Assembly: GCA_947172415.1 (NCBI GenBank)
Contig: OX359194.1
Span: 6,826,401-6,890,400 of the forward strand
Length of the DNA: 64,000 nucleotides
Direction of reading: 5' to 3'
DNA from: Chondrosia reniformis
Taxonomy: Eukaryota; Porifera; Demospongiae; Chondrillida; Chondrillidae
Below are positions 10,429-63,327 of the stretch, piece by piece. Each line of letters begins with the position of its first letter. Position 1 is the first letter of the stretch. The position numbers and the translations under genes were made by a program. Below the pieces are notes generated by a model. That model saw only the letters and a program-made list of their open reading frames with translations. It was not told the origin of the DNA and searched no databases.

Positions 10429-15491
<5,063 letters not shown>

Positions 15492-20717: not shown

Positions 20718-20723
20718 AATAAA
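20718..20723 (+). terminator. Poly(A) signal of VHL-beta-like 1a
   Basis: AATAAA 57 nt after the exon-2 stop; conserved at 33256-33261 in block 2. Supports the two-exon model over the unspliced ORF. Confidence 0.5.
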
Positions 20724-33825: not shown

Positions 33826-34496
33826 ATGAAGAAGATAATTATTGTCTTTCTGGTGGTACTGCTGGCAGCTAATGGGAGATCAGTAAACCCGTTTACTTGC
33901 CTGAAGTCCTACGACCCACTTGTTCCCGAAGGTGGAGACACACAAATAAGGTTTATTAATAAAGGAGCAACTCCGCTTAATTTGTACTGGATCAATGACT
34001 CGGGGGGTACGGTCTTGTATAGCACTCTATCTACAGGGCAACGTTACTGTCAACCTTCCAGTACAACCCACCCATGGCTTTTTAAAACAGTGGATAACGA
34101 AGACGTGGCCATCTATATTCCTCTTAACAATAAGGTCGCTTATGTTGAAATTCGTAAGTGTGAATGCAATGCATGTGCCCTTTGCTAATCTAATATCATG
34201 CAGCTAGGGTCGGTGAAAGTATGTGTATACAGGCTTGTATCGTCCCTTTCATGAGATACATAGTGCATGCATGCATCTCCATCCATTGAATCCTTCAATG
34301 AACTTGCTCCTGACCATTAACAGTTATTCCAACATACGTTATATATTATTGTTACATAGCATACACATCCCATCCTATAATCTAATATTAAATGTCCCAC
34401 AACATGCTATGTTAATTATGGCAAGTATATAGTGACATGCAATTTTATGTCATTTTAACCATATTAATTGATTTCGTTTCTTTCACAACAGATTAA
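33826..34496 (+). CDS. Secreted VHL beta-domain-like protein 2b (two exons)
   Basis: Block-2 counterpart of 1b. Start at 33826 (MKKIIIVFLVVLLAANGRS). The core is almost identical to 1b: IRFINKGATPLNLYW, SGGTVLYSTLSTGQ, HPWLFKT. Exon 1 ends at 34153 (AATTC|GTAAGT); exon 2 at 34492-34496 adds His-stop. The four paralogues keep this odd terminal exon, which argues that it is real. Confidence 0.65.
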
Positions 34497-36896: not shown

Positions 36897-37640
36897 AGTC
36901 CTATTAGTGTCAATGCATGCAGGCTAGCTGTACTTGTGCAGTTGCTACATATATAACATTCTTTACTTATAGTCTATAGAACTGCATCATGCACCTTATA
37001 GACCATGCAAATATTAATCTAATTTATAGTTAACTCTTAATTTCAAGCTCTTGATAATGGTACAATTATATAATTGTGCATGACATGCAGCTATATATAA
37101 TGTATAGCTAGCGCTGCATGAGTTTTATAATAATATATAATAACATATAACATTCTTTACTATTAATTATAATTATTATTATAATAAAAAAGAGTGACAC
37201 ATGCATGTGTATGCACTAGGCCAAGCTGGACCCATGAGTCATTAGTCTATAGGAGTCACAGGAGTTATATATGAATTGAGCTCTTCTTGCTACTTCCTTC
37301 ATGCACTTTGATCTTTGTCTTCAGTCCTTTGTATATTCAAACTCCTCCTATCTTAAAATGTACATATATATATAAGGAATTCTAACCCAGTACATATAAA
37401 GGCATATGATAAGCAGTATATAGGTCTGATGAGGATAGGAGTGTGCCATGCTTTATATGCATGCCAGATCATGGATGTTAGCTATATATATATTAGACCA
37501 TGTTGCTTACCAATTACTTTTTCACACTTAATGGACCGTTACCATTTGGTCATACATATATTATTATTCTTTCTCCATGCACATCTTCTGAATAGCCTTC
37601 CCCAGTCTCCATGCAGTCCTCACTTGCCATGTCCACTGCC
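36897..37640. other. 3' flank of carbonic anhydrase 2 and end of duplication block
   Basis: AT-rich, no gene. Homology to block 1 fades at about 37459. Confidence 0.5.
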
Positions 37641-41711: not shown

Positions 41712-42049
41712 ATTAGAGTGCTGTAACTCTGTCAAATGGCTAAATATGAAGCTTAAACTTGGTGTCTACATTCACAGACATGTATGAAACATTTCCAAAC
41801 AGTTTTAGAAATTTTGATTTCTACATAAATTTGCCCTATCTCTCCCCATACATTAACTTAATACACAATACAATGTACATTTAGTGCTGTAACTCTGTCA
41901 ACTGGCTAAATATGAAGCTTAAACTTGGTGTCTACATTCACACACATGTATGAAACATTTCCAAACAGTTTTAGAAATTTTGATGGTCCTCCGGAGTGCA
42001 CTCCAACACATCCTATACAGGGAAGGGCAGATATGTAACTAAGACATAC
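41712..42049. repeat. 158-bp satellite end and junction sequence
   Basis: Two repeat copies, then the arms stop in the palindromic GGAGTGCACTCC (41993-42004) and pass into a linker that is identical at 50448-50515. Confidence 0.75.
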
Positions 42050-42450
42050 CCCTATTACCACACCCTCCCTTATATTGCCACACCCTCCCTTATATTGCCA
42101 CACCCTCCCTTATATTGCCACACCTCTCCCTTATATTGCCACACCCTCCCTTATATTGCCACACCCTCCCTTATATCACCACACCCTCCCTTATATTGCC
42201 ACACTCTCCCTTATATCGCCACACCCTCCCTTATATTGCCACACCCTCCCTTATATTGCCACACCTTCCCTTATATTGCCCCACTCTCCCTTATATTGCC
42301 CCACTCTCCCTTATATTGCCACACTCTCCCTTATATTGCCACACCCTCCCTTATATTGCCCCACTCTCCCTTATATTGCCACACCCTCCCTTATATTGCC
42401 ACACCTCTCCCTTATATTGCCACACCCTCCCTTATATTGCCACACCCTCC
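42050..42450. repeat. 20-bp minisatellite, copy A
   Basis: About 20 copies of CCCTCCCTTATATTGCCACA with CTCTCC and CCCCAC variants. Long ORFs in it (LPYIATPSL repeats) are artefacts of the period. Confidence 0.95.
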
Positions 42451-42974
42451 CAGGAACCCTTCCAGTGTTCTTGGGAGTGCAGCAGTAGTCTTGACCATCT
42501 CTGCAGCCCCTTCCTGCCTGTCTCTATATACCCTCAGTTCTGAATTAGTTGTATTAACATCTGCAGTTTTGTAGGTCAGCCTCCTATAACCCTGCTTCAC
42601 CTTTCTCCATGCAATCTAAGAGCATAGCCTCCATGCAGGTCTATTATTGTTATATAGCCTTTTATATGTCCATGCAGGTGCAAGTTACAAAAGTGTATAT
42701 ATGTATGCAAGTTATATACAAAATGGTCACCCATGCAGTAGCCATGCAGACAGTCAAACTTCATGTATTGTAATAAAAATTCTGTGAATACATTTGGATT
42801 TCCCACCTAAGAAAGGCAATCGCGCTTTCGTACGGTATAATTTCGATAATCGAATAATTCGGTTAAACAATTATTTTTAATCGGTCCCAAAGTGTTATTC
42901 TATTAAGCGGGCGACCTGTATCAAGTTTCCACATAAGGTCTAGGACATTGTCTTGTAAAACCTCAAGGAGGATA
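42451..42974. other. Spacer upstream of Fringe A
   Basis: 42451-42600 carries the CTGCAGCCCCTTCCTGCCTG block shared with 37790. From about 42682 on it matches 52590 onward (Fringe duplication). TATCAAGTTTCCACATAAGG and neighbours form a conserved putative promoter/5'UTR before the ATG. Confidence 0.5.
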
Positions 42975-45900
42975 ATGTGGCGTTTAATGAAGAGTACTGT
43001 ACGACCTGTCTTTATAGTCACAGCGTTTGTTTTTGTCGTCCTAGTCTTGGGTAAGTGTCGGCAACTTCAATAACACTGTAAATTGCCATGTGACTTACCA
43101 TAGCTAAATCATTGTACTTGAGAACTAAAATATTACATCTCTGCATGCACTTTATTATAACTACAGCTATCTCAGTGACACTTAGTCACGACGAACGTTT
43201 AAGGAGAAAGAGTGAAGGGACATTTGTTTCAAGGGAGCTAAACTCCGTCATTTCCCAACTAAAAAATGCAAATAAATCAGGAGGAGAAACTCAAAAAGAT
43301 AAGGGAGAGATGAGCCTGAAGGTGTTCCAGCAAGCTAGCGACATGATAGCGTCTTCATCCGAGAATGCTAAAGTTGGTGTTCTTTTTACTATTCGAACGT
43401 TGGGTAAATATCATAAAGAGAGAATGCCAATTCTTTTGGACACATGGGTCAAGAAAACGAACCCCTCGCAGGTGAAATGTTCTTAGAAAAGCTATACAAG
43501 TGCCATATAGTAATTAAATTAACACTAATCTGGTTTGGGCATATAGGCAACCATTTGTGTTCTAAATACATGTATGCACCCAAACTTATTATAGAGGTCA
43601 TGATTCGTTCAATTGACATGCATACTAATGTATAAATATCAGTTGTTTGCATTGGCATGTGTAAATGTGTACCAAATCTATCGTTTTTACAGGTACGTGT
43701 GTTTACTGAAAATCCTAATGATAAAGGTTTAGCTGAATCACTTCGTGCTAGAGGAATCAAAATGTACTCTACAGCTCACTGTCAGGCACCTTATGTTAGG
43801 TGAATATATTACCACAAGACATGACAAGTATATGTATTGTATACTTGAAAATATATATGAAATGTAGTTTTGCCCTATCAGTCTAAATATATAGAAAGTA
43901 AAGCCACATGTGTATGGTATGTCATTGAGTTACAGATATAATCAATAGTTTCTTTTCAATCTACATTGCTACCTACAGGAAGATCCCTTAACTAGCCTTT
44001 AACACCCTCACCTTCACCCTCAACCTCATCATCCTTCATCCTCAACCTCATCATCCTTCATCCTCACCATCCTTCACCATCATAATCAGGCCCCATGCTC
44101 TGTCTATAACGGTGGCACTGGAATCAGGTATTATATACCTTACTAAACCTACTAATTTGTTCCTATGCATGCATAGGAGGCTAGAGGCACAGTTATGCTG
44201 TAAGAGTGGTGCTGAACACAAACTCTACACATCAGAGGAGACAAAGCACTTCAGATGGTTTTGCCATGTTGACGATGACATGTACATCAATACTAAAATG
44301 CTGTACAAGGAGTTGTCACCTTATGCTCCGTTGAGTCAGAAGATATACTACGGAAGGAAAGCTGGACAGCATGTTAGTTACAAACAATCACCATCACTCA
44401 GTATTTAAACCCAATCTCTGTACATATGTATGTTTAATAATCCTCAGAAGGGTGGAATGTTGTATTGCATGATTGCAAGTGAAATAAAGTGTCTTTAAAA
44501 ATCCTAATAAATTATCGTAGAACGGCATGTATAATGCATTACACAATTAAGGGTCTATGTTACACAATCTAGTCTGCTTGTATTTCACTGCAGCTTCCAA
44601 AGACCTCAACCTTGTTTGAAAAAGTAAGATGACTTGTAAAAAAGACATTCATCCTAACTACTTTGCAGTTCTGTACTATTTGAAGACCTTGAAGAACTTG
44701 TAATGCATATGTCATCTCCATTTTACCATTGTGTAGGGAAATGTTGCACTGAACAGTACATTTAAATTGATGTATGGAGGGTTTTACTGTCTAAGTAGGA
44801 AATTAGTTGAAGAGACAAAACCTTACTTTGGGTGAGCTTAGGATTAGTGCACTGTAGACACTTTTGCATGACTGTCTGTACATATCCGTCTATACAAGTC
44901 CGTCTGTACAAGTCCATCTGTACAAGTCCATCTGTACAAGTCCGTCTGTACAAGTCCGTCTGTACAAGTCCGTCTGTACAAGTCCGTCTGTACAAGTCCA
45001 TCTGTACAAGTCCATCTGTACATGTCCGTCTGTACATGTCCGTCTGTACAAGTCCGTCTGTACAAGTCCATCTGTACATGTCCGTCTGTACATGTCCGTC
45101 TGTACATGTCCGTCTGTCTGTCTAAACAATACTCTCTGTATATACTGTACAGGGGCAGTCTTGTCTGTCTAACCAATACTCTCTGTATCATAAAGTACGG
45201 TAGTACTCTATAAGTAGGGATGACCGAAAAAAAACATGGCCGCCCTATTCAATGTATTATCAATTAACACCTAATAAATCAACAGCGATAGTTTTTTTGC
45301 TTGTATATACTGTACAGGGGCAGTCTTGCTTACATGAGGACTTGTAAGGATGGTGGTCATCATGACGATACCTTACTAGGAGCTGTCATAAGTAAGACCA
45401 TGTAGACTACATGTAGTATTATGGTTTATGGTTTATATTATAGAAGCAGCATAGGCTCTTATAGTATTAATAAGAGCAGGGTGGGCTCTTATATATGTAT
45501 ATTTTGGTGGGCTCTTGTAGTGCACTATATCAGATCATCATTATTAATATAAGTCTTCCACATGCTTTATGTCAACCTTTAGAAGCCAACTAATATGTTA
45601 TGTTCAATGGACAATTCAATGTTGTATGGTTACAATGGCTTAATAGCTGTTATATATCTCTATTTTCAATGCTATTTAAAAGCTTTTACTAACTAGATGA
45701 TTGCATTTAGAATTTGACCTGATGAAGATTGTTTTAATTAGGTGTACTCCTAATTTTGAAATAGATGCCATGATTGGGAAGTTGCTAATTTTTGTTTGTT
45801 GGAGCATCTATATAAATCTTTCACTACTTGCTAGAATGGTTTAGTGCACTGTATATACCCATTTGCATATGCATGTCTGTCTTTAGCAATATATTATAAA

Positions 45901-46684
45901 GTATTGGTAAAGATCCTTGAAGTAAAGTTGCTGAGATTTTCTGAATTTTCTGAACTATCCAGCCTTTCTTGTACGAGATGCCAAAATGGTATTCAGCAGT
46001 CGAGTGCATCACCATGTTTACCGAGATCCTCTTAATGCAATCCCTTTGGCTGAGCTGAAATATTTGGTAATTCCTATTTATATATTATACTGTATATATA
46101 CGGCACCCTTCCTTACACATATGTAGCAGGCTAAGGGTGCTATATATCTATTACATGAATGATCTAATACACCATTTCCTACATGCTATGCCTAATAAAT
46201 TAAAGGCCTATAGGAAACTAAACCTGGTGAGAGCTTTAGATGAGGATACAGGAGTTCTGGGCCATCTTTGAATATATACCACCCTTCATCAGTGACCCTG
46301 GGAATCTTTCTTCAGAATCTTTCAGTCTTCGTTATACGTATGTATATAATATGTTGACACTGATTGCATGTAAAATCTGCTGTCTACATATATTTACAGT
46401 CACATTGTTAATGAATTAATGTAACTTTTTCAGTTGTAATTAACATTTTTCTTTGTTTTTAACAGGCTTAAACAAACATATGCAAATAAATATTCCTTAA
46501 TCATGTTTGTCTTCTATTACGTTTCTAGGTAACTATATCATATGGACATGGAAGGGCACGCAACTTTCAGGGTGCGCCTAATGTTGTTAACATCACAAAT
46601 GCTAGATTTGACATCAAAGAAGATCCCACAAGATTTAAATCATTTCACTGTTTCTTGAACCCTGAAGATGCAGTTTGTCATTAG
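42975..46684 (+). CDS. fng: Fringe-like beta-1,3-N-acetylglucosaminyltransferase A (9 exons, 380 aa)
   Basis: GT31-family Golgi enzyme; Fringe proteins extend O-fucose on EGF repeats of Notch. Exons: 42975-43050, 43167-43471, 43693-43799, 44177-44372, 44594-44623, 44737-44831, 45318-45391, 45963-46066, 46529-46684; phases agree throughout (1143 nt). MWRLMKST then a hydrophobic stretch (VFIVTAFVFVVLVLG) forms a type II signal anchor. Next come the stem, FTIRTLGKYHKERMPILLDTW, the metal-binding DDD in FCHVDDDMYIN (about 195-197), YGGFYCLSRKLV, GGHHDDTLLGAVI (equivalent of the PDDCTIGYI catalytic region), then VTISYGHGRARN and SFHCFLNPEDAVCH at the C-terminus, typical of Fringe. AATAAA at 46754. 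Confidence 0.9.
44876..45175. repeat. 14-bp minisatellite in Fringe A intron 6
   Basis: About 17 copies of TCTGTACAAGTCCG/TCCA/ATGTCCG variants, followed by one copy (about 45136-45175) of the 46-bp acceptor-derived repeat that is expanded in Fringe B. Overlapping ORFs on both strands are artefacts. Confidence 0.9.
46155..46320 (+). repeat. R1 repeat copy in last Fringe A intron
   Basis: ATACACCATTTCCTACATGC to CCACCCTTCATCAGTGACCC. Same family as in the SPEF2 introns; duplicated at 56110-56275. Confidence 0.6.
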
Positions 46685-46779
46685 CAGAATTATGACAAAA
46701 CTATCATAATAGTCATTATTCAAGAATTCAACTCTCAAAAATTGTATATGTTTAATAAATGGTTGTAACTATGTACGTA

Positions 46780-47955
46780 TATGTACTACATATACAGACA
46801 TCAAAATTTCTAAAATTCTTTTGGAAATGTGTCGTACATGTCGGTGAATGCAGACACTAAGTTTAAACTTCATATTAACCCATTTGACAGAGTTACGGCA
46901 CTAAATGTACTGTAATACTGTGTATTGTGTATATATTGTGCGATACTATCGTACAAAAATAGGAATACCTCAAGTTAAAGCATTTTTCTTGCATGTGGCC
47001 GACTAGAGACAGTCCAGAATACAGCTTTCTGAAGATATAGCTATATAGAAGAGGCAGCCATTATCCTTTTACAGCTTGAGATTGAATGTGGCTGGTTATA
47101 GTATTAAACGTTGAAATCAGAACACCTATCGCTAAAATTGTTTCTACATGGGACCAGAAAAGCTGCTCTCCCAGGCCTATGAAGAAACATACAGGATTTT
47201 ATCCATTATTCCCAGTTTCGAGATGGACCACAAATGCTGAGTATACTTGCAAAATTGCTTGAAGCAATACGCTGATCTGTAAGTAACTTGAAATAAATTG
47301 ACTATATTTTTCTCACAAATACCCTATTCTTAAGTATGGAAAAGTGCCAACCACAATTGTTTTCTTTTTAAATTTTGTTATTTAAATAGAAACACAAAAC
47401 CTTATACATATATGTTAAAATTTCTAAAACTGTTGGAAATGTTTCATACATGTCTGTGAATGTAGACACCAAGTTTAAGCTTCATATTTACCCATTTGAC
47501 AAAGTTACTGCACTAAATGTACATTGTATAAGTTAATGTATGGGAAGAGATAGGGCAAATATGAGTTAAGTCAAACTTTCCAAAACTCATTGATCCTGTT
47601 TAATAGATGTCTGTGAATGTTGACACCAAGTCAGAGCTTCATATCTCTCCATTTGATAGAGTTACGGAACTAAATATACAAAAATCCTAGTATACAAACT
47701 TAATGCATGAGGAGAGATAGGGCAAATTTATGTAGAAATCAAAATTTCCAAAACGTATTGATCATGGATTGATAGATGTTTATGTAGAAATATCTATCAC
47801 CATAAAAGTTGGTATGCTTGTAGCTAATGTACATTTAGAAATTTTGATTGCCCCAGCAACAGAGTGTATTATATGAATTAACGTATGTATGGTGGGAGGC
47901 AGGGCAATTCACATCAAGGTAAATTATATTCCACAACTGATGTATCCTACCAAAA
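46780..47955 (-). repeat. Old, inverted copy of the composite satellite unit
   Basis: Reverse-orientation, diverged: 158-bp-type segments (46800-46915, 47415-47760) around a decayed exon-like core (46935-47350, ORF broken by stops). Present only in Fringe copy A, absent between 56715 and 56720 of copy B. Confidence 0.75.
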
Positions 47956-48157
47956 ACTCAGTAAACACCGATAAACTTGTGTAATCCCGCAAAATGCAAG
48001 AAATGCCTAAGGGCAGAGTATATAACTATTACTTAATGTACATTTATATGGTGCTGCAGATTAATTTATCCTCCACTTTGTTGGGAATTTGTTCAACTCA
48101 TTTCTTTATAGCTGTTATACGTGCATGCATGAAATAAAAATAAAAAAGTTCATAATT

Positions 48158-49131
48158 TCAAATTAACTGTTTTAACTCCAATACAAGCTTTTCGGCTTTC
48201 TCATAACTCCATCCAAGGCCTTTCAATGGACCCTTAGCTATGGCTGTGTATCGTGATAAGCACAGAATCCCCAAAGATGCAATATCATGATCAGATGGTT
48301 TAAGCTTCCTTTCAACTTCATCTCTCCCATGCAGCGTCTCCATCAGCTGATAAAGTACCATACAATCTCCTTCAATGCAGTTTGCTATAGGGCTTCTTTG
48401 AACACCCTCTCTGTTGATATCAGAACTGCTTGCCTGGTGTAGTACCTTCTCTTGTTTGGTGTACCAGTAGCACAGATCACCACAATACATTAGACTGAGC
48501 ATATGGGTATCACTAAACACACCTGGGGGAGGGGTGGGGAGGAGAATGCAATCTTGCTACTGCAAGTCAACAAACCAAGTCAAATTACCTATAAAATTGA
48601 AATGATTAACTTGATAATGGTTCATCATAAGTTTCTTGAACGTCTAAAGAGGCAGTTTGCCATCCTTAGTATCTAGACACGCAAAAGACTAAAGATGAAC
48701 CATCTCAAAGGTAAGTTTGGCGCAGTTAAAAGAAATCCTGTCATCTAACTTGATAATCTTTGAGATGGTTCATCATACGTAAGTTTCTCAAGCGTCTAAA
48801 GAGGCAGGTTGCCATCCTTAGTATCTAGACACGCAAAAGACTAAAGATGAACCATCTCAAAGATAAGTTTGGCGCAGTTAAAAGAAATCCTGTCATCTAA
48901 CTTGATAACGTATATAAATATTACAGAGGAGGAAACTAGCCAGTATCAGTGAAGGATACCACCAAAATTTAAGTCCGTTTTTATAAATCTTCATCATACA
49001 AAATACAAATGACCACAGGTATTTGATGTACATATATAATATGGGTTCATCTATAAGTTTTCCCTCACTTGCAATTAACTTAAAAGAATTAATTACCTTC
49101 TCTTAGCAGTTGCGCAACTTGTCCCTGATCA
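48158..49131 (-). pseudogene. RIMOC1 3' remnant (last exon plus part of exon 7)
   Basis: Last exon 48522-48158 is protein-identical to the intact copy (GVFSDTHMLSLMYCGDLCYW ...). Upstream, exon 7 (from 49097) is cut near 49131, where sequence switches from GTCCCTGATCACT into the satellite (CATTTCCAAACAG). The first six exons and promoter are missing, so it is a truncated copy. Confidence 0.85.
48595..48910. repeat. Tandem pair of foldback repeats in RIMOC1 intron 7 (remnant)
   Basis: Two units of about 150 bp, each with GATGGTTCATCAT at one end and ATGATGAACCATC-like complement (AGATGAACCATCTCAAAG) further on. Duplicated at 57370-57680. Confidence 0.7.
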
Positions 49132-49346
49132 CTCATTTCCAAACAGTTTTAGAAATTTTGATTTCTACATAAATTTGCCCTATCTCTCCCCATACATTAA
49201 CTTAATACACAATACAATGTACATTTAGTGCTGTAACTCTGTCAAATGGCTAAATATGAAGCTTCAACTTGGTGTTTGCATTCACAGACATGTATGAAAC
49301 ATTTCCAAACAGTTTTAGAAATTTTGATTTCTACATAAATTTGCCT
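49132..49346. repeat. 158-bp satellite, segment next to RIMOC1 remnant
   Basis: About 1.4 units, continuing directly from the broken RIMOC1 exon. Confidence 0.85.
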
Positions 49347-50343
49347 TATCTCTCATCATACATTAACTAACCCTAATTGCGTAATACTATATATGGCCGA
49401 CCTTGAGTAGGTGTAAGAGTGAAAATGCGGTACTGTATATATTTCTTAAAAAAATAGAACTCTTTGAAAGATTTCTTATACACATGGATATGCACTGTGT
49501 AGTACTTGATTGTTGTTGAAGCAGTATCTATCCACATATATTATATGGATGTCGTTAAAGTGAAATTTTGCCGATCGACGGCCAACGAAACTCCAAAGAA
49601 AAAAAGTTGGACCATACCGAACGCTACCATCCACGACGCTCAGAGGCCGGGATCGGTGGTAACGCTCTGCCGAGTTGAGCTTTGGGTGTCACTTGCGTGA
49701 GAAGAACCAGTTCTTCTCGATATGGCCGACTCATACGAATCCTTAAAGATATCAGATGCCAATCCCACATTACGTGGAACCCCCCCGAAATCCGGATTAT
49801 TGGTGAGCACGTCTCTATGGCACCAACCGATTAGGAGACAGCTTCAGAGTCTAAGCGCTACCAACCCCTATGGGAACCGCTACCACCATAGAGATGTGTC
49901 CAGGTAGGCCTACTTTATAAGGTTTTGCGCTTCTATTTAAACAAGAAAATTTCAAAAGGAAACGATTGTGGTTGGCGCAATTCCATACTTAAGAATAGGG
50001 TATTTGCGAGAAAAATGGATAGAATCCTGTAAGTGTCTTGATTGGCGGAGGAGACCAACTTTTCTGGTCCCATGTAGAAACGATTTTAGCGAGAGGTGTT
50101 CCGAAATGAACGTAAACAGGTATAACCAGCCACACTCAATCTCAATTACAGTAATAGCATAATGGCTACCTGCTTCTATGTAAAGACCTTCTGACAGCTG
50201 CGTTCTGCACTGTCCTTGCGTGTTTTTAGTTACCCCATTCATGTCAAAACATTTTAACTTGGTATGCCGATAATTTGCATAATAGTATCGCACGATATAT
50301 ATGCTACACCATTTAAGATCATAGAGTAGAAATTTAATGTACA
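49347..50343. repeat. Exon-like unit of composite satellite, copy 3
   Basis: Third near-identical copy (ATG frame at 49722; minus ORF 50344-49952), lacking about 80 bp present in the other two (GTAGTCAAATTATATC... near 39300). Confidence 0.6.
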
Positions 50344-50515
50344 TTAGAGTGCTGTAACTCTGTCAAATGGCTAAATATGAAGCTTCAACTTGGTGTCTAC
50401 ATTCACAGACATGTATGAAACATTTCCAAACAGTTTTAGAAATTTTGATGGTCCTCCGGAGTGCACTCCAACACATCCTATACAGGGAAGGGCAGATATG
50501 TAACTAAGACATACC
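50344..50515. repeat. 158-bp satellite fragment and GGAGTGCACTCC junction
   Basis: Same ending as 41983-42049, so unit plus linker plus 20-bp array moved as one block. Confidence 0.75.
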
Positions 50516-50936
50516 CCTATTGCCACACCCTCCCTTATATTGCCACACCCTCCCTTATATTGCCACACCCTCCCTTATATTGCCACACCCTCCCTTATAT
50601 TGCCACACCCTCCCTTATATTGCCACACCTCTCCCTTATATTGCTACACCCTCCCTTATATTGCCACACCCTCCCTTATATTGCCCCACTCTCCCTTATA
50701 TTGTCACACCTCTCCCTTATATTGTCACACCTCTCCCTTATATTGCCACACCCTCCCTTATATTGCCACACCTCCCTTATATCGCCACACCTCCCTTATA
50801 TCGCCACACCCTCCCCTATATTGCCACACCCTCCCCTATATTGCCACACCTACCCTTATATCGCCACACCCTCCCCTATATTGCCACACCCTCCCCTATA
50901 TTGCCACACCTACCCTTATATTGCCACACCTTCCCT
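50516..50936. repeat. 20-bp minisatellite, copy B
   Basis: About 21 copies with CCCTCCCCTATATTGCCACA and CCTACCCTTATATTGCCACA variants towards the 3' end. Directly abuts the RhoGEF exon donor at 50951. Confidence 0.95.
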
Positions 50937-50950
50937 AGGACCCCACCCAC

Positions 50951-51638
50951 CTTAAGTAGCAGTATGTATCTGCGTATTCTCTGTACAGGAGTGATGAGGT
51001 AGGAAGTGAGTGTTAGACCTGGAGTGACTTTGGGGCTGGCCAGACACTGTTGGATGAGAGAGTCAAACTCCTTCTTACGTTTCATTTTCTGAAGGACAAT
51101 CTGGAACGGGAATAGGAATGGGAATAGGAATGGGAATTAAAATGGGTTTCATTAGAGATGTTTAATTTATTATATGAGTAGTAACACAATGTTAGCAAGG
51201 CTCTTCAGTCTTGGAAGTATTATCTTTGAGTTGTTTATCCATTAGGATACACTTGATACATTTAGAGATACTGAACATTCAGTGAAACACAATGACATCT
51301 TTAGACATATAAAAAAAGTCTTATAAGTCATACTAACCATGTCTATAGGAAAATGGTGCATTAGATTATTCTTGTATACAGTAACCATTAGCAAATTATA
51401 CGTACGTAACCAATAGCAACCCATTTGTTCTGCAGAGTCGTAATTGTTACAGTAAACTGCATATATACTCTTGTGTTGGTGGTCAAACTGAAGTAACAGA
51501 CACAATATATTACTATATATTTATAAGAGCCCACGGGCTACAATCTTAATGAATATATCTCCAATGCACTCCTCATCACTCCAACTGGACAGCCTCTGAT
51601 GGAGAGATGAGAGCACCTCGAGGTTGAAGGAGAGGATC
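50951..51638 (-). pseudogene. Orphan RhoGEF (DBL-homology domain) exons
   Basis: Three stretches match the DH domain of Rho guanine nucleotide exchange factors. Exon 51638-51542: LEVLSSLHQRLSSW and CIGDIFIKI. A probable exon 51487-51421: SIYAVYCNNYDSAEQM. Exon 51100-50951: KKEFDSLIQQC and LTLTSYLITPVQRIRRY, the DH helix-8 signature. Splice consensus flanks the first and third; the phase between the second and third does not agree with the donor I see. No upstream exons, PH domain or downstream exons are in the window, because the 20-bp array follows directly. Likely a fragment of a gene broken by rearrangement. Confidence 0.72.
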
Positions 51639-52028
51639 CTGGGAAAAGGAAATAGTTACAGAGCAACTATTAGCAGGTTGGTATTAAAATCATGTGCCTA
51701 AATTGTCATGTGCCTAAATTGTCATGTGCCTAAATTACAGAGCAACTGAGCAACTGAGTATGTAAGTATGTACATACCAGATATCGGGATATGAATGCAA
51801 GAGTAAAAGATTGGGAATTATAACATATACCATTTCACATTCAATTCAAAAACATCGAAAATGTGATCTTATAATTTAATTTAATATGTGACCTTATAAT
51901 TTAATTCATAGGTTGCTAAAGATATTCATGAATATGTGCTACCTAAAGTTGTCCAAAAGTTGTTATACTTTCAGCTATCCTACTATATAATATGTACTAC
52001 AGTATATAGTAGTCTACTAATCTAAATA
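51639..52028. other. Non-coding spacer
   Basis: AT-rich, with a short triple repeat (CATGTGCCTAAATTG at about 51690-51730). No exon seen. Confidence 0.45.
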
Positions 52029-52433
52029 ATGTATCTCCTTGTTGTCCTACTAGTACTATTGTGGCTAATATCAGTTGGAAGGTGGTTAGTAGAACTAGTA
52101 GTTTTAATCATTGAACTAGTGGAAGCTCCAGTGAGGATGGAGACTGAAAGTGTGGACCCTACAGGTGGAGGAGGTGAGGAGGGAGCTCCTGTGAGAGGTA
52201 GAGGAGGTTAGAAGGGAGCTCTTGTTGAAGAAAACAACCAGGCTGGTCCCTCAGAGTTAGAAACAGGCACTACACTAAGAGCCATACCTCCAGTGCTATA
52301 CAGAGAAGTGTATATCAACAGTTGGTTAGTGGAGGAGCCATATGCTGTATTATGCCTACCAGTTGCAGTGCCAGTTAGAAGGTTCAGAGAAGAGGAGAAG
52401 GCAGAATTAGTTACTGGCAGAGAGACAAGATAA
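52029..52433 (+). pseudogene. Membrane-anchored ORF interrupted by one in-frame TAG
   Basis: Frame open from 52029 to the TAA at 52431-52433 except for TAG at 52209. It begins MYLLVVLLVLLWLISVGRW, a signal-anchor/TM helix, and has a Gly/Glu-rich linker. After the stop comes a good-looking coding stretch (PSELETGTTLRAIPPVLYRE ... YAVLCLPVAVPVRRF). The region around the TAG contains an internal GAGGAGGGAGCTCCTG-type duplication. Not recognised; either a decayed gene, or two parts of a gene with a mis-placed exon. Confidence 0.4.
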
Positions 52434-52891
52434 GACTAATATATAACTCCGCTTCATTGCACAATATATAATCAATTATAATATGTGTGTACTTAGGTAC
52501 GTGTTAACATTGGCAAATATTGATTCCACTTCAGATTGTGAGAGAAGATTTAACATTGGCTTCTTAAATACCTACAAATAGTACACAGTATAAGTTACAA
52601 AGTGTATATATGTATGCAAGTTATATACAAAATAGTCACCCATGCAGTAGCCATGCATGTGTTTAAAGACAGTCAAACTTCATGATATTGGAATAAAAAT
52701 TCTGGAAAATTTGGATTTCCCACCTAAGAAAGGCAATCGCGCTTTCGTACGGTATAATTTCGATAATCGAATAATTTGGTTAAACAATTATTTTTAATCG
52801 GTCCCAAAGTGTTATTCTATTAAGCGGGCGACCTGTATCAAGTTTCCACATAAGGTCTAGGACATTGTCTTGTAAAACCTCAAGGAGGATA
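52434..52891. other. Spacer and putative promoter of Fringe B
   Basis: From about 52590 it is the copy of the Fringe A upstream region, including TATCAAGTTTCCACATAAGG. No exon. Confidence 0.5.
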
Positions 52892-55800
52892 ATGTGGCGT
52901 TTAATGAAGAGTACTGTACGACCTGTCTTTATAGTCACAGCGTTTGTTTTTGTCGTCCTAGTCTTGGGTAAGTGTCGGCAACTTCAATAACACTGTAAAT
53001 TGCCATGTGACTTACCATAGCTAAATCATTGTACTTGAGAGCTAAAATATTACATCTCTGCATGCACTTTATTATAACTACAGCTATCTCAGTGACACTT
53101 AGTCACGACGAACGTTTAAGGAGAAAGAGTGAAGGGACATTTGTTTCAAGGGAGCTAAACTCCGTCATTTCCCAACTAAAAAATGCAAATAAATCAGGAG
53201 GAGAAACTCAAAACGATAAGGGAGAGATGAGCCTGAAGTTGTTCCAGCAAGCTAGCGACATGATAGCGTCTTCATCCGAGAATGCTAAAGTTGGTGTTCT
53301 TTTTACTATTCGAACTTTGGGTAAATATCATAAAGAGAGAATGCCAGTTCTTTTGGACACATGGGTCAAGAAAACGAACCCCTCGCAGGTGAAATGTTCT
53401 TAGAAAAGCTATACAAGTGCCATATAGTAATTAAATTAACACTAATCTGGTTTGGGCATATAGGCAACCATTTGTGTTCTATATACATGTATGCACCCAA
53501 ACTTATTATAGAGGTCATGATTCGTTCAATTGACATGCATACTAATGTATAAATATCAGTTGTTTGCATTGACATGTGTAAATGTGTACCAAATCTATTG
53601 TTTTTACAGGTACGTGTGTTTACTGAAAATCCTAATGATAAAGGTTTAGCTGAATCACTTCGTGCTAGAGGAATCAAAATGTACTCTACAGCTCACTGTC
53701 AGGCACCTTATGTTAGGTGAATATATTACCACAAGACATGACAAGTATATGTATTGTATACTTGAAAATATATATGAAATGTAGTTTTGCCCTATCAGTC
53801 TAAATATATAGAAAGTAAAGCCACATGTGTATGGTATGTCATTGAGTTACAGATATAATCAATAGTTTCTTTTCAATCTACATTGCTACCTACAGGAAGA
53901 TCCCTTAACTAGCCTTTAACACCCTCACCCTCACCCTCAACCTCATCATCCTTCATCCTCACCCTCACCATCCTTCACCCTCACCCTCACCAACCTTCAT
54001 CCTCACCTTCACCCTCAACCTCATCATCCTTCATCCTCACCATCCTTCACCATCACAATCAGGCCCCATGCTCTGTCTATAACGGTGGCACTGGAATCAG
54101 GTATTATATACCTTACTAAACCTACTAATTTGTTCCCATGCATGCACAGGAGGCTAGAGGCACAGTTATGCTGTAAGAGTGGTGCTGAACACAAACTCTA
54201 CACATCAGAGGAGACAAAGCACTTCAGATGGTTCTGCCATGTTGACGATGACATGTACATCAATACTAAAATGCTGTACAAGGAGTTGTCACCCTATGCT
54301 CCGTTGAGTCAGAAGATATACTACGGAAGGAAAGCTGGACAGCATGTTAGTTACAAACAATCACCATCACTCAGTATTTAAACCCAATCTCTGTACATAT
54401 GTATGTTTAATAATCCTCAGAAGGGTGGAGTGTTGTATTGCATGATTGCAAGTGAAATAAAGTGTCTTTAAAAATCCTAATAAATTATCGTAGAACGGCA
54501 TGTATAATGCATTACACAATTAAGGGTCTATGTTACACAATCTAGTCTGCTTGTATTTCACTGCAGCTTCCAAAGACCTCAACCTTGTTTGAAAAAGTAA
54601 GATGACTTGTAAAAAAGATATTCATCCTAACTACTTTGCAGTTCTGTACTATTTGAAGACCTTGAAGAACTTGTAATGTCATCTCCATTTTACCATTGTG
54701 TAGGGAAATGTTGCACTGAACAGTACATTTAAATTGATGTATGGAGGGTTTTACTGTCTAAGTAGGAAATTAGTTGAAGAGACAAAACCTTACTTTGGGT
54801 GAGCCATACATACGTTAGGATTAGTGCACTGTAGACACATTTGCATGACTGTCTGTACATGTCCGTCTGTACATGTCCGTCTGTCTGTCTAACCAATACT
54901 GTCTGTATATACTGTACAGGGGCAGTCTTGTCTGTCTAACCAATACTGTCTGTATATACTGTACAGGGGCAGTCTTGTCTGTCTAACCAATACTGTCTGT
55001 ATATACTGTACAGGGGCAGTCTTGTCTGTCTAACCAATACTGTCTGTATATACTGTACAGGGGCAGTCTTGTCTGTCTAACCAATACTCTCTGTATATAC
55101 TGTACAGGGGCAGTCTTGTCTGTCTAACCAATACTCTCTGTATCATAAAGTACGGTAGTACTCTATAAGTAGGGATGACCGAAAAAAAAACATGGCCGCC
55201 CTATTCAATGTATTATCAATTAACACCTAATAAATCAACAGCGATAGTTTTTTTGCTTGTATATACTGTACAGGGGCAGTCTTGCTTACATGAGGACTTG
55301 TAAGGATGGTGGTCATCATGACGATACCTTACTAGGAGCTGTCATAAGTAAGACCATGTAGACTACATGTAGTATTATGGTTTATGGTTTATATTATAGA
55401 AGCAGCATAGGCTCTTATAGTATTAATAAGAGCAGGGTGGGCTCTTATATACGTATATTTTGGTGGGCTCTTGTAGTGCACTATATCAGATCATCATTAT
55501 TAATATAAGTCTTCCACATGCTTTATGTCAACCTTTAGAAGCCAACTAATATGTTATGTTCAATGGACAATTCAATGTTGTATGGTTACAATGGCTTAAT
55601 AGCTGTTATATATCTCTATTTTCAATGCTATTTAAAAGCTTTTACTAACTAGATGATTGCATTTAGAATTTGACCTGATGAAGATTGTTTTAATTAGGTG
55701 TACTCCTAATTTTGAAATAGATGCCATGATTGGGAAGTTGCTAATTTTTGTTTGTTGGAGCATCTATATAAATCTTTCACTACTTGCTAGAATGGTTTAG

Positions 55801-56652
55801 TGCACTGTATATACCCATTTGCATATGCATGTCTGTCTTTAGCAATATATTATAAAGTATTGGTAAAGATCCTTGAAGTAAAGTTGCTGAGATTTTCTGA
55901 ATTTTCTGAACTATCCAGCCTTTCTTGTACGAGATGCCAAAATGGTATTCAGCAGTCGAGTGCATCACCATGTTTACCGAGATCCTCTTAATGCAATCCC
56001 TTTGGCTGAGCTGAAATATTTGGTAATTCCTATTTATATATTATACTGTATATATACGGCACCCTTCCTTACACATATGTAGCAGGCTAAGGGTGCTATA
56101 TATCTATTACATGAATGATCTAATACACCATTTCCTACATGCTATGCCTAATAAATTAAAGGCCTATAGGAAACTAAACCTGGTGAGAGCTTTAGATGAG
56201 GATACAGGAGTTCTGGGCCATCTTTGAATATATACCACCCTTCATCAGTGACCCTGGGAATCTTTCTTCAGAATCTTTCAGTCTTCGTTATACGTATGTA
56301 TATAATATGTTGACACTGATTGCATGTAAAATCTGCTGTCTACATATATTTACAGTCACATTGTTAATGAATTAATGTAACTTTTTTCAGTTGTAATTAA
56401 CATTTTTCTTTGTTTTTAATAGAGTAAATTCAGGCTTAAACAAACATATGCAAATAAATATTCCTTAATCATGTTTGTCTTCTATTACGTTTCTAGGTAA
56501 CTATATCATATGGACATGGAAGGGCACGCAACTTTCAGGGTGCGCCTAATGTTGTTAACATCACAAATGCTAGATTTGACATCAAAGAAGATCCCACAAG
56601 ATTTAAATCATTTCACTGTTTCTTGAACCCTGAAGATGCAGTTTGTCATTAG
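52892..56652 (+). CDS. fng: Fringe-like beta-1,3-N-acetylglucosaminyltransferase B (9 exons, 380 aa)
   Basis: Exons: 52892-52967, 53084-53388, 53610-53716, 54150-54345, 54567-54596, 54704-54798, 55274-55347, 55919-56022, 56497-56652; all exon lengths equal copy A. Only a few substitutions are visible (K to N in ETQNDKGE, V to L in LKLFQQ, I to V in RMPVLLDT). The DDD motif, GGHHDD and C-terminal SFHCFLNPED are unchanged. Intron 6 carries five extra copies of its own acceptor region. The poly(A) signal differs from copy A: AATAAA at 56736, beyond the point where copy A holds its insertion. Confidence 0.9.
54886..55140. repeat. 46-bp minisatellite built from the Fringe exon-7 acceptor
   Basis: Five tandem copies of TATACTGTACAGGGGCAGTC+TTGTCTGTCTAACCAATACT upstream of the real exon 7. 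The real site is TATACTGTACAG|GGGCAGTCTTG at 55262-55284, so each repeat includes a full-looking 3' splice site and 11 nt of exon. Fringe A has one such copy (about 45136). Confidence 0.9.
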
Positions 56653-56923
56653 CAGAATTATGACAAAACTATCATAATAGTCATTATTCAAGAATTCAAC
56701 TCTCAAAAATTGTATATGTATACTCAGTAAACGCCAATAAACTTGTGTAATCCCGCAAAATGCAAGAAATGCCTAAGGGCAGAGTATATAACTATTACTT
56801 AATGTACATTTATATGGTGCTGCAGATTAATTTATCCTCCACTTTGTTGGGAATTTGTTCAACTCATTTCTTTATAGCTGTTATACGTGCATGCATGAAA
56901 TAAAAAAAAAAAAGTTCATAATT

Positions 56924-59900
56924 TCAAATTAACTGTTTTAACTCCAATACAAGCTTTTCGGCTTTCTCATAACTCCATCCAAGGCCTTTCAATGGACCCT
57001 TAGCTATGGCTGTGTATCGTGATAAGCACAGAATCCCCAAAGATGCAATATCATGATCAGATGGTTTAAGCTTCCTTTCAACTTCATCTCTCCCATGCAG
57101 CGTCTCCATCAGCTGATAAAGTACCATACAATCTCCTTCAATGCAGTTTGCTATAGGGCTTCTTTGAACACCCTCTCTGTTGATATCAGAACTGCTTGCC
57201 TGGTGTAGTACCTTCTCTTGTTTGGTGTACCAGTAGCACAGATCACCACAATACATTAGACTGAGCATATGGGTATCACTAAACACACCTGGGGGAGGGG
57301 TGGGGAGGAGAATGCAATCTTGCTACTGCAAGTCAACAAACCAAGTCAAATTACCCATAAAATTGAAATGATTAGCTTGATAATGGTTCATCATAAGTTT
57401 CTTGAACGTCTAAAGAGGCAGTTTGCCATCCTTAGTATCTAGACACGCAAAAGACTAAAGATGAACCATCTCAAAGGTAAGTTTGGCGCAGTTAAAAGAA
57501 ATCCTGTCATCTAACTTGATAATCTTTGAGATGGTTCATCATACGTAAGTTTCTCAAGCGTCTAAAGAGGCAGGTTGCCATCCTTAGTATCTAGACACGC
57601 AAAAGACTAAAGATGAACCATCTCAAAGATAAGTTTGGCGCAGTTAAAAGAAATCCTGTCATCTAACTTGATAACGTATATAAATATTACAGAGGAGGAA
57701 ACTAGCCAGTATCAGTGAAGGATACCACCAAAATTTAAGTCCGTTTTTATAAATCTTCATCATACAAAATACAAATGACCACAGGTATTTGATGTACATA
57801 TATAATATGGGTTCATCTATAAGTTTTCCCTCACTTGCAATTAACTTAAAAGAATTAATTACCTTCTCTTAGCAGTTGCGCAACTTGTCCCTCATCACTC
57901 TCATTGTATTCCTCTTTGGAGAGTGGCGTTCTCACATTTAGCATGAGCTGCAAGTACCCAATTCCAGCCAAAGAACACTATAAGTGTGTAGGCATGTATT
58001 TTGTTAAACAACTTTTTTATTGGTTCAGTAATCACTCTGTATTACTAAGCAATCTCCAACAAATTGGTTAGTCTTATAGTGTTTCTCCTTTATCTTTAAG
58101 TATACAAAGCAACAAAGAGTACGGCTAACCTGACGAGCAACAGAATCCCACTGTCCTCCATCTTGTTTACCATCAGTCACAGTGTGACAGTACATATAGC
58201 ACAATGCACCTGCTCTCCACAACAAACACTCCAAGTAATCCTTTCCCAATAGCTCCATCACCTTGAGTTTCATAGCAACAGAGAGATTACATTTAAAAGT
58301 AGCCCCAATTGAAGTGAGAAATCATATGGAATACCTTGTTTTTTGGATCATCAGTAATCTGGTAGCACACTTTTACAGGAAGTACTAATTGGTCTAGAAT
58401 TAAAGACAGTTCACATGCAAGAAACCACTTTGAAGTTTTGTATGAATAACAGCCATATTCACAGCCACTTACCAAATAATGAAATAAACTGCTTTTTATC
58501 TTTAAAATCTTCATCAACAATTTTAAGTTCAATCTTATATGTCTGATCTAATATAGACTACAAGAAATATCTTTATGAACACAGAGGACATACATCATTG
58601 AACATAGCACTCACCTTTGTGTATTTCTGTAGAGATTTTTGCAAGTTGTAATTTGATGGCTCATTACTTCTAAAAGCACGTATGCATACACATGCACGCA
58701 TTCCTTCAACGTAGCTTTATTCAACCTCACATTTACGAAAGAATTGCTTAAACTTACTGAATTATTCTAACTGCTGATTTAGCATATTCAGTAGCATTCA
58801 TTAATAAATCATCTACAGTAATGGAGGATACTCTATTGCTGTGTTGCTACACACTGATTATAAAAATAAAGACAAACTAGCCTTATAAGATATTGCAAAT
58901 GTGGGCAATTACTGAAGATTGATTTCATGATAACCTTTGAACCTTTGAGCAAAGGTAATAGAAACAAAAGTCCCTCTTTGAAACCCAATACTGTCACTAT
59001 GATCACATACATTCAACAGATACCAATTTAAAACATGAGAATATGTACCCTGTACAATTTCCCTGGGTAACCACTGTATGTACATTAGAAAGATGTACAA
59101 TTTCCTTGGGTAACCACTGTATGTACATTAGAAAGTTGTACAATTTCCTTGGGTAACCACTGTATGTACATTAGAAAGATGTACAATTTCCCTGGGTAAC
59201 CACTGTATGTACATTAGAAAGATGTACAATTTCCCTGGGTAACCACTGTATGTACATTAGAAAGTTGTACAATTTCCCTGGGTAACCACTGTATGTACAT
59301 TAGAAAGATGTACAATTTCCCTGGGTGACCACTGTATGTACATTAGAAAGATGTACAATTTCCCTGGGTAACCACTGTATGTACATTAGAAAGATGTACA
59401 ATTTCCTTGGGTAACCACTGTATGTACATTAGAAAGATGTACAATTTCCCTGGGTAACCACTGTATGTACATTAGAAAGATGTACAATTTCCCTGGGTAA
59501 CCACTGTATGTACATTAGAAAGATGTACAATTTCCCTGGGTAACCACTGTATGTACATTAGAAAGATGTACAATTTCCCTGGGTAACCACTGTATGTACA
59601 TTAGAAAGATGTACAATTTCCCTGGGTAACCACTGTATGTACATTAGAAAGATGTACAATTTCCCTGGGTAACCACTGTATGTACATTAGAAAGATGTAC
59701 AATTTCCTTGGGTAACCACTGTATGTACATTAGAAAGATGTACAATTTCCCTGGGTAACCACTGTATGTACATTAGAAAGATGTACAATTTCCCTGGGTA
59801 ACCACTGTATGTACATTAGAAAGATGTACAATTTCCCTGGGTAACCACTGTATGTACATTAGAAAGATGTACAATTTCCTTGGGTAACCACTGTATGTAC

Positions 59901-60350
59901 ATTAGAAAGATGTACAATTTCCCTGGGTAACCACTGTATGTACATTAGAAAGATGTACAATTTCCCTGGGTAACCCAATTAAATGCATACCTAAAGTGGT
60001 CTCTATATATGTAACAGCCCAGAAATCACTTGGCAGCATGCTGACTTAAAATATACAATGCTGTATTTACATTATATTGATTGGTAAAGTAGTTTAAAAA
60101 TCTATGTGATCCTAAAGTTCCATTCAAAGGAATTGACATAATTCACAGTTTTGCATATAAATACTACTACACTTATAGCCGTTGTATATCTACCTTATGA
60201 ACAGCATTCCCTAAGTTACAATGATACCATATATGAATAACCTCTAAAACGCATCTTACCGTCTGGAAACTGTCGCAAAAGGTTCTGACAGTGTTTAACT
60301 TGCTTCTCGTATTCTCCTTTCAATACGGTCCCGGGAGAAGGTGCAGCCAT
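56924..60350 (-). CDS. RIMOC1: RIMOC1 (C5orf51) orthologue, complete (8 exons, 324 aa)
   Basis: RAB7A-interacting subunit of the MON1-CCZ1 complex, which activates RAB7 in mitophagy and endosome maturation. Exons: 60350-60260, 58830-58758, 58669-58615, 58557-58473, 58393-58335, 58261-58130, 57977-57863, 57288-56924; phases agree (975 nt; human 294 aa). Conserved blocks: VMELLGKDYLECLLWRAGAL then CYMYCHTV; LAGIGYLQLMLNVRTPL; GVFSDTHMLSLMYCGDLCYW; AKGPLKGLGW near the C-terminus. The acceptor of exon 2 (ATAGAG|TATCC) is weak. Start ATG 60350 gives MAAPSPGTVLKGEYE. Recognised from remembered human blocks, no search run. Confidence 0.85.
57370..57680. repeat. Tandem foldback repeats in RIMOC1 intron 7
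   Basis: Same two-unit structure as 48595-48910, with TTTGAGATGGTTCATCAT and AGATGAACCATCTCAAAG as inverted partners. Confidence 0.7.
59048..59975. repeat. 43-bp satellite in RIMOC1 intron 1
   Basis: About 21 copies of CCCTGGGTAACCACTGTATG+TACATTAGAAAGATGTACAATTT. Variants: CCTTGGG and AAAGTTG. The palindromic GTACATTAG...TGTAC part could fold. Confidence 0.95.
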
Positions 60351-60446: not shown

Positions 60447-63327
60447 ATGGTAGGTCTAACGGCCTGCAACCGCTCCATCGAGCAGTTTTAGTCCTTTGAT
60501 CATTGCGCAAATGTAATTTGATAGCGTTCCCCGTTTCTTTGTCCCCGGTACAGCCTAGTCCCTGTTATTCATTTGTATACAAACTGTACAAGGTAAATGC
60601 GTACTTCATGTTTTTATCGTTATTCTGATAGGAGCTATACGAAGAGCTTCCCGAAGCGGAAGGGCTGGAGTTGTACGAGGAACTGCCATGCGAGAAAGAA
60701 CTAGGGTACGACTCCGGCGCCCCTCCACCTCCTCCCAGCCTCTCTAGTATTCCATCCCTGCCGCCGAGGAACGCTACTACCCTTCCCCCACCAGGGAAGC
60801 AAGCCCCGCCCCCGCCTCCCCCCGTCAGAGATGAAGGCACAAAGCTTACCAAGGAGAGATCTAATACCTTGGTTAAAAGACCATCCCCGGCCCCTCAGTC
60901 CTCTGGGGGAGGAATAGACATTCGAGATATTGCTAAAAAGGCCACAGCAATGCAGAAGGTTAACATTGACGAGTTGTTAGAGAAGAAAAAGGAAAAAAAG
61001 GAAGAAGATGTTCCTGAATGGATGTTAAAGAGGAGAAAGCGAGTTGAGAGCATTGCCAGCAATGAAGGAATTGATGCAGTTAGTGAAAAATCAGGCAGTG
61101 ATGACTCCATGCCTGAGTGGGTAAGAAAGAGAAGAGAAGACTTTAAAGGGCCCGATGATGGTAAGCCTGCTGTGACTGCCAAGAAGCCACCACCTGCAGC
61201 TCCAAAGCCAAAAAATGTCGACTCAGGTGACAATATCCGAGCAAAATCTCCCTTGATGGGAAGGAAAGGAGAATTAACCCCTCAACTGGCCCCTAAACCT
61301 GCTCCTCCCAAACCTGGCCCCAAACCCATGCCACGATCTCCATCCACAGGAAGTGAGGAGTTCTCCAAACCACCTCCTGTAGCTCCCAAGAAGCCCTCAG
61401 CGTCACCTGTTTTGGAACGGAAGCCTGCGCCTCCTGAAAAGCCAGTCAAGGGTGACTCTAGTCCTGTGCTGATGGGAAAACCAGCACCTCCAGTCAAGAA
61501 ACAGCCACCACCCCCACCTGTACGTACTACCAACATCACTCCCATCACACCTCCTCAAGAACGGCCAACAACTACAGCTTCTCCGACCAGCTCAGAACCC
61601 GTATACTATCGGCGGATACCTCTGCCAACCTTTGACATGAGCAATCAGCCGAGAGTTCCAGGCCGGGACTCCAAGCCACCTCCTCCTCAAGGCATGGCTA
61701 ACGGAGGACCGCCCACATTCAAGCCTCCAGCGCTGGAAGTTGAAGAAGATGTTGGTGAAGATTTCTATGATGATGTTTCAGTAGCTCAACAACAGCAACA
61801 GTGGGGATCACATAGTTATATACCAGAAGAGAGGTATGTAGTACAGTAGAGCTATAGTGTTCATATACCAGAAGAGAGGTATGTAGTTCAGTAGAGCTAT
61901 AGTGTTCATATTCCAGAAGAGAGGTATGTAGTTCAGTAGAGCTATAGTGTTCATATTCCAGAAGAGAGGTATGTAGTTCAGTAGAGCTATAGTGTTCATA
62001 TTCCAGAAGAGAGGTATGTAGTACAGTAGAGCTATAGTGTTCATATACCAGAAGAGAGGTATGTAGTTCAGTAGAGCTATAGTGTTCATATTCCAGAAGA
62101 GAGGTATGTAGTACAGTAGAGCTGTAGTGTTCATATACCAGAAGAGAGGTATGTAGTTCAGTAGAGCTATAGTGTTCATATACCAGAAGAGAGGTATGTA
62201 GTACAGTAGAGCTATAGTGTTCATATACCAGAAGAGAGGTATGTAGTTCAGTAGAGCTATAGTGTTCATATACCAGAAGAGAGGTATGTAGTACAGTAGA
62301 ATTATGTTTGGTTACAAAAGTTGTTTACTGTATTGAAATAGAAAATATTATTTAAATGGATGTCTTTATTGAAAATTTAATACTTAGTGGATGTGTCTAT
62401 TGTTTCTCAATATGATAGAAGTGAAGGTAACTTTTGAATCATATTTTACTTTCTAGTCGCATGTAATGTCAAATATCGTGATGTCTTGGGTAAAAATATT
62501 ACTCACAAATGAAAACAGCTATTGCATCATAGACGTTGTTTAAGGTTTTCTAATTGCCCTCGTATATGTTGTATGTATTCATTGGTATACTCAGGTATGT
62601 CCTCTGTTCTCACCAGGCTTACTTAGTTCCCCAAGGCTTTTTAATTTATTACCAATTAGGCATAAAATGTATTAATTATTCATAGAAATAATATAGTACT
62701 ACTTAACTGTACTGTTAGTAGAGATGATGCTGGGAATGCTCCTATGGGTACTTGAGTTTAGTCTTTAGAGATATGTCATGTGTTGAACTGCTATAATCAT
62801 CTGAGCCCCCTGAGTGTATACGTATGTACATGTACTTTCGTTTTCATGCCGGATTTCCAGTCAAATGTTTAGGGTGCTGAAGTTCTCCTTTGATGTGTCA
62901 GTATTGACCACATTGAAAGTGCTAATTTATAGTGTTTTACTAATTACATTTTCCTCAAATACAACGGACAATCAGTTGACATAGTGTAACAGTATTTATG
63001 GTGCCAACTTATATAGGAAATACCAAATACCTTCTCATTATTGATCACTACCTCTGTAGTATGGACAACGGCCCTGATGATGTATATGATGATGTTTCTG
63101 GTGGTCCTCCGCCATTGCCTCCGTCTTCTGCTGGTCCTCCTCCATCCTTCAAACCTCCAGGCATCCCTGAAGGACCGCCCACTTTCAAGCCTCCACCAGT
63201 CCCTCCAGCAGCCAGAGCTCCGTCACCATTTAATCCATCTGATGGCCCTAATGAGACTTATGAACCATTTGAAGAACCTGGAGGACCCACCGAGGAGTAT
63301 GAAGCTTTTGAAGTCAGTCATAAATAA
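60447..63327 (+). CDS. Proline-rich multi-tyrosine adaptor with N-terminal ITAM (3 exons, 490 aa)
   Basis: Exons: 60447-60449 (ATG only, then GTAGGT donor), 60632-61833, 63060-63327; phases agree. The N-terminus reads MELYEELPEAEGLELYEEL, i.e. YxxL-x8-YxxL, the ITAM consensus. Then come many PPPP runs (SH3/WW/EVH1 ligands), two PEW(M/V)xKRR repeats around 115-165, FYDDVS and VYDDVS motifs, paired GPPTFKPP segments, and a C-terminal YEPFEEPGGPTEEYEAF pair. No TM segment or folded domain seen. YDDV motifs and Pro-rich layout recall FYB/ADAP-type adaptors, but no helical-SH3 domain is visible. The gene ends with VSHK-stop, or may splice on at GAA|GTCAGT (63312). Identity otherwise unknown. Confidence 0.75.
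61812..62297. repeat. 45-bp minisatellite built from the exon-2 donor of the ITAM gene
   Basis: About 11 copies of TTCATATACCAGAAGAGAGG+TATGTAGTTCAGTAGAGCTATAGTG. The first copy is the exon end itself (IPEER|GTATGT), so each copy repeats a candidate 5' splice site AGAG|GTATGT. Period is 15 codons; the minus-strand ORF (MNTIALLNYIPLFWY repeats) is an artefact. Confidence 0.9.
62298..63059. other. Remaining intron 2 of the ITAM adaptor gene
   Basis: AT-rich, no further exon recognised between the 45-bp array and the CCTCTGTAG acceptor at 63051-63059. Confidence 0.5.

Follow-up and report, generated by a model that had tools for sequence, protein, structure and literature searches.

A conserved ITAM-like tyrosine pair at the N-terminus of a predicted soluble proline-rich scaffold in the sponge Chondrosia reniformis

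Introduction

Receptor ITAMs include those of CD3, FcR gamma and DAP12, and their classical spacing is six to eight residues (x6-8) between two YxxL-type motifs. Syk with tandem SH2 domains has been reported from sponges and other invertebrates (PMC9486129, PMC9601881), and invertebrate ITAM proteins upstream of Syk have been inferred from co-occurrence (PMC5978004). A soluble ITAM has also been described in moesin: located in the FERM domain and with a spacer of 10 residues, it functions through Syk in phagocytosis, independently of a receptor (PMC6189171). Phosphorylated YDDV motifs of the adaptor ADAP bind SLP-76, Nck, PLC-gamma and others (PMC2908683).

The locus described here lies in a stretch of 64,000 nucleotides of the C. 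reniformis genome, referred to below as the window, and is predicted to encode a proline-rich protein (the scaffold) with an ITAM-like pair at its N-terminus. The first-pass annotation of the window took ITAMs to sit in membrane receptors or their partners, a generalization that does not hold in view of moesin (PMC6189171); given this precedent, a soluble ITAM is not new in kind. Both proteins are soluble and have a YxxL/I pair. However, in moesin the motif is part of a folded FERM domain and its first Tyr is followed by Lys (PMC6189171), whereas in the scaffold it occupies the free, acidic N-terminal end of a protein predicted to be disordered and without a FERM domain. In comparison with receptor ITAMs, the YxxL-x8-YxxL of the window falls within the classical consensus, but the scaffold has no membrane segment, is very acidic, and belongs to a family with spacing from x6 to x12. 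ADAP, like the scaffold, is a proline-rich adaptor with two YDDV motifs (PMC2908683). It differs in that no SH3-like domain was found in the scaffold exons (exons 2 and 3 gave no Pfam match to the helically extended SH3 domain of ADAP/PRAM), and homology to ADAP is not seen in the sequence. To our knowledge, ADAP has no N-terminal ITAM.

What appears to be new, as read from the sequence, is the setting of the ITAM-like pair: it stands on a free and acidic N-terminal end, in a disordered, proline-rich scaffold that also has adaptor-type tyrosines, and it is conserved in a family for which no domain is known. No earlier account of this scaffold family or of a sponge ITAM was found in the part of the open-access literature that was covered, including searches on the species, ERM proteins and ADAP.

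Gene model of the scaffold

Exon 1 (60447..60449, plus strand) consists of the start codon only, and inspection of the sequence places the splice donor directly against it (ATG|GTAGGT, GT at 60450-60451). The acceptor, TTCTGATAG, has its last base at 60631, and exon 2 opens with GAG CTA TAC at 60632 in phase 0. An in-frame TAG stands immediately upstream, and thus exon 2 cannot simply run further in that direction. Use of an alternative acceptor three bases on (ending at 60634) would give an MLYEEL start and retain both tyrosines. Exon 2 (60632..61833, plus strand) encodes residues 2-401 and two bases of codon 402; it ends in phase 2 and is predicted to join in frame to exon 3 (63060..63327, plus strand), which supplies the C-terminus and a TAA ending at 63327. 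The product of this predicted splicing has 490 amino acids and the N-terminal sequence MELYEELPEAEGLELYEEL. A Met occupies the equivalent place in relatives such as P0003, and the MELYEEL start of some of them (P0003; P0012 after read-through sequence) supports an intron behind the start codon. The proposed joining of the ATG at 60447-60449 to 60632 is thereby supported, with the splice itself predicted. Exon 2 was found once in the genome searched (117,379,552 bases, 15 contigs), with no paralogue at E 0.001.

A 45-bp minisatellite of 10.7 copies at 61818-62300 repeats the donor of exon 2 (GAGAG|GTATGT), and the in-frame reading of its units contains TAG. On the minus strand, a head-to-head neighbour (60200-60350) opens with MAAPSPGTVLKGEYEKQ... 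at an ATG at 60350, only 97 bases from the scaffold ATG, which suggests a shared promoter.

Motifs and character of the scaffold

The ITAM-like core, YEEL-x8-YEEL, runs from Y4 to L19 (60638..60685, plus strand), its paired tyrosines being Y4 and Y16, and is followed by Y27 (YDSG). All further features are on the same strand. A stretch at 60752..60829 holds, by motif count, two PxxPxR sequences (residues 42-47 and 62-67), which we take to be of the class of SH3 ligands and therefore candidate SH3 sites. A conserved GGGID block and two PEW..KRR motifs (residues 93-169; 60905..61135) emerge from the alignment, with helices predicted by AlphaFold. Towards the C-terminus are two YDDV motifs, Y380 (61766..61777) and Y411 (63085..63096), and the stretch from YEPF (Y469) to YEAF (Y482) at 63259..63309; the extra YDDV and YExF tyrosines of the first-pass annotation are therefore present. 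YDDV near the C-terminus also occurs in P0002, P0004 and P0027. Beyond the N-terminus, no YDDV was found in the remaining 23 relatives, many of them with models that end sooner.

Proline makes up 21.6% of the protein, and residues 1-25 have a net charge of -9. The most hydrophobic 19-residue Kyte-Doolittle window averages -0.09, so that no membrane span is predicted, in agreement with the soluble, proline-rich character claimed earlier. AlphaFold, run on exon 2 with a 12-sequence alignment, gave a mean pLDDT of 54.7 and a pTM of 0.19, with no residue at 90 or above and four short helices at 97-108, 112-125, 129-142 and 162-171 (exon 2 numbering). The scaffold is thus predicted to be mostly disordered. 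Exon 2 matched no Pfam family (E up to 1) and no PDB chain. A sub-threshold Pfam match of exon 3 to AraC_binding (E 0.064) was disregarded, as was the one PDB match of the family profile (E 2.6). A known domain family was likewise rejected, since 12 family members searched against Pfam gave seven families with one member each (best E 0.043). The Pfam ITAM model PF02189 found two sub-threshold places in the genome, neither at the scaffold locus.

Relatives and conservation of the pair

Apart from the exon of the gene itself, a first search returned P0002 at E 9.4e-44 and P0003 at E 0.54. An X-masked three-sequence alignment found 12 proteins, own exon included, and a five-sequence search found 24, with E no higher than 3.9e-14 for 23 of them and an E of 2.8 for P0027; the counting of P0027 as a relative rests on its motif order. 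The 98 pattern matches in viral contigs included no relative. In total there are 26 relatives (P0002-P0027), likely sponge proteins. Fifteen reach the N-terminus; the other 11 (P0004, P0013, P0014, P0015, P0017, P0019-P0024) start downstream and are uninformative on it. The counts below therefore refer to 16 sequences, the window included.

All 16 N-termini have the first YxxL, and 15 have the second tyrosine. A YxxL-x(6-12)-Yxx[L/I/V] pair occurs in 13, or in 11 under strict L/I, as V closes the second motif in two (P0003, P0005). The forms are YEEL-x8-YEEL (window, P0002), YEEL-x7-YEDL (P0007), YEEL-x8-YEDL (P0009, P0010, P0018), YEEL-x9-YEDL (P0016, P0025), YDEL-x9-YEDL (P0006), YEEL-x11-YEDL (P0011), YEEL-x12-YEDL (P0008), YEEL-x9-YEDV (P0003) and YDEL-x6-YDDV (P0005). 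The second motif is broken in P0012 (KEDL), P0026 (YEHP) and P0027 (YVDT). Spacing among the 13 is thus x6 (1), x7 (1), x8 (5), x9 (4), x11 (1) and x12 (1), with the classical x6-8 in 7/13, window included, and x9-12 in 6/13; the x12 of P0008 and x11 of P0011 were read from the alignment, the regular expression having taken YPED in the linker. The claim of paired YxxL at the extreme N-terminus is borne out by Y4 and Y16 of the 490-residue product. 'Textbook' describes the window (x8) and does not extend to the family, with its x6 to x12 spacing, V in 2/16 and second motif lost in 3/16. Orthologues without both YxxL motifs had been named beforehand as refuting evidence; the relatives instead keep the pair at the frequencies given above.

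The consensus of the 13 paired sequences is [E/D]-[L/F]-Y-[E/D]-E-L, then L-Y-[E/D]-[E/D]-[L/V]. Leu stands at -1 of the first tyrosine in 14/16 and of the second in 15/16, with Leu/Val at +3. The -2 position of the first tyrosine is acidic in 16/16, which does not fit the ITIM consensus as generally known. The alignment of 16 has 285 window columns with no more than 3 gaps; eight of these never vary, including Y4, E6 and L7. PxxPxR occurs within the first 100 residues in 13/16 and is missing from the three with a broken second motif, a post hoc observation; as P0012 and P0026 are sisters (100/100), the joint loss represents at most two events. In a tree of 26 rows (without P0017), P0002 and P0004 form a group with the window (100/100), set on a branch 1.44 changes per column long, and the pair has thus survived deep divergence. 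Support was under 80% on 8 of 23 inner branches, and the P0027 branch is very long.

Most relatives came from queries that kept the N-terminal motif and masked the proline-rich parts. As a control, a profile of the window, P0002 and P0003 minus the first 40 residues was run against N-terminally trimmed members (E for 5.77 billion sequences). Seven members (P0004, P0005, P0006, P0007, P0008, P0009, P0011) had E values of 8.6e-5 or lower, three (P0020, P0018, P0010) had 0.0036-0.028, and four (P0017, P0014, P0026, P0016) had 1.2-500; P0012, P0013, P0015, P0019, P0021-P0025 and P0027 were not among the matches listed, nor were any of 135 shuffled bodies. HMMER bias terms were large in many rows, as expected with proline-rich sequence. 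The N-terminus-free profile recovers the family core and not the distant members, whose inclusion thus rests on the motif-keeping masked-alignment searches. The source name of P0017 is that of a snail, Gigantopelta aegis. A long block in its middle is identical to P0006 at every letter, other parts look frame-shifted, and its contig has 54,850 bases. One of the two assemblies is likely contaminated, and occurrence in molluscs is not concluded.

A strict Yxx[LI] pair arose in 0.64% (x6-12) or 0.27% (x6-8) of 200,000 shuffles of the 490-residue protein, and in 1.4% (x6-8) when residues 2-30 alone were shuffled. The same loose ITAM pattern has 1085 matches in mouse (PMC6189171). The paired pattern by itself is thus weak evidence, and the weight is carried by conservation in relatives, on account of which a chance origin was set aside.

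Syk and Src-type kinases

The SYK gene (10429..15491, minus strand; ATG at 15491, stop at 10429) encodes an N-SH2 domain, interdomain A, a C-SH2 domain and a kinase, the kinase exons having been read by eye. Over residues 6-255, the joined tandem SH2 could be aligned along its full length with solved SYK (E 3.7e-45), as against 1.4e-40 for ZAP-70 and 6.2e-16 for the best tandem or single SH2 of another family. No ankyrin repeats were seen between the SH2 domains. Judged by these features, the gene annotated as SYK is a real Syk/ZAP-70-type kinase, with two SH2 domains, an interdomain without ankyrin repeats and a tyrosine kinase. It shares tandem SH2 and tyrosine kinase with Syk/ZAP-70 and shows nothing unusual, tandem-SH2 Syk being already known from sponges (PMC9486129, PMC9601881). 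Its presence in the same window had been offered as a hint of joint function; the two genes are about 45 kb apart, such closeness is no evidence of common function, and the argument was dropped. A Src-type kinase is encoded elsewhere (L005:189-2998, genome C9, around 7352441), with an MGCASSK start and SH3 in one open frame and SH2 and kinase in another; its best PDB match is Src (E 4.6e-97). Thus, both partners needed by an ITAM are encoded in the genome.

Segmental duplication in pieces links 14497-26102 and 27140-37132, with identities of 98.9%, 97.1% and down to 82-91%. At 27315-28174 the copy contains the two coding exons with which SYK begins (N-SH2), and further SYK exons were not seen there. 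A second large duplication, also in pieces, links 41872-49134 and 50336-57900 at 94-99% identity.

Proposed mechanism and alternatives

We give roughly even chances to a one-piece soluble ITAM scaffold, which would first recruit Syk and afterwards present its YDDV/YExF and SH3 sites. The first 19 residues of a mostly disordered cytosolic protein would act as the ITAM. Y4 and Y16 would be phosphorylated by the Src-type kinase, its SH3 docked on the nearby PxxPxR, or by Syk, and the doubly phosphorylated pair would recruit and activate Syk through the tandem SH2. Scaffold-held Syk would then phosphorylate the C-terminal YDDV/YExF tyrosines; adaptors with one SH2 domain, for example Nck, may bind to these, and SH3 proteins to the proline-rich body. 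A single polypeptide would in this way unite the roles that vertebrates divide between an ITAM-bearing subunit and an ADAP/SLP-76-like adaptor. Src-family kinases prefer I/L/V at -1 and, moderately, a bulky hydrophobic residue at +3, and c-Src and ZAP-70 accept acidic peptides better than Lck does (PMC5889215). Leu at -1 and Leu/Val at +3 of the scaffold tyrosines fit this preference, and from it, together with PxxPxR, we infer the steps from SH3 docking to adaptor binding. Against an ITAM stand the spacing, looser than x6-8, the three second-motif losses, and the lack of a Pfam ITAM match at the locus.

The main rival, unlikely on balance, is that the tyrosines are two independent docking sites for single SH2 domains (Src-type, Nck-like or similar) on a Src-substrate scaffold, with no tandem SH2 involved. 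The Src substrate and SH2 optimum is pYEEI-like, and the likeness to an ITAM could arise because each site follows it; Leu at -1 and the acidic flanks also suit Src. Separate sites stay the main rival because the spacing drifts and the second motif is lost in three of the 16, the first in none. Further, the second site is YDDV in P0005 and YEDV in P0003, comparable to the ADAP motifs that bind single-SH2 proteins (PMC2908683). However, the sites are kept together in 13/16, always 6-12 residues apart, the range of ITAM searches (PMC6189171).

Binding of the pair to a tandem-SH2 protein other than Syk is improbable, even though an SH2 model matched 82 places in the genome. Proteins of the SHP-2, p85 and PLC-gamma types have tandem SH2 domains and would be the candidates, but the acidic -2 is unlike ITIMs, and YEEL/YEDL with x6-12 fits the known ligands of Syk best. 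It is very improbable that unphosphorylated YxxL serves as a tyrosine-based sorting signal for an AP complex: all first motifs match YxxPhi, but such signals are normally in membrane tails and need neither the conserved acidic residues nor Leu at -1.

Significance

If the pair does recruit Syk, the retention of this N-terminal signal in relatives means that the scaffold may show a use of Syk predating immune receptors. It is possible, though doubtful, that a one-piece cytosolic ITAM-plus-adaptor scaffold is a main Syk partner in sponges, and that early animals ran tandem-SH2/ITAM signalling on soluble scaffolds, earlier than the ITAMs of immune receptors or independently of them. A conserved soluble ITAM candidate and a complete Syk in one genome provide a defined peptide and a defined tandem SH2 for testing the role of Syk before immune receptors.
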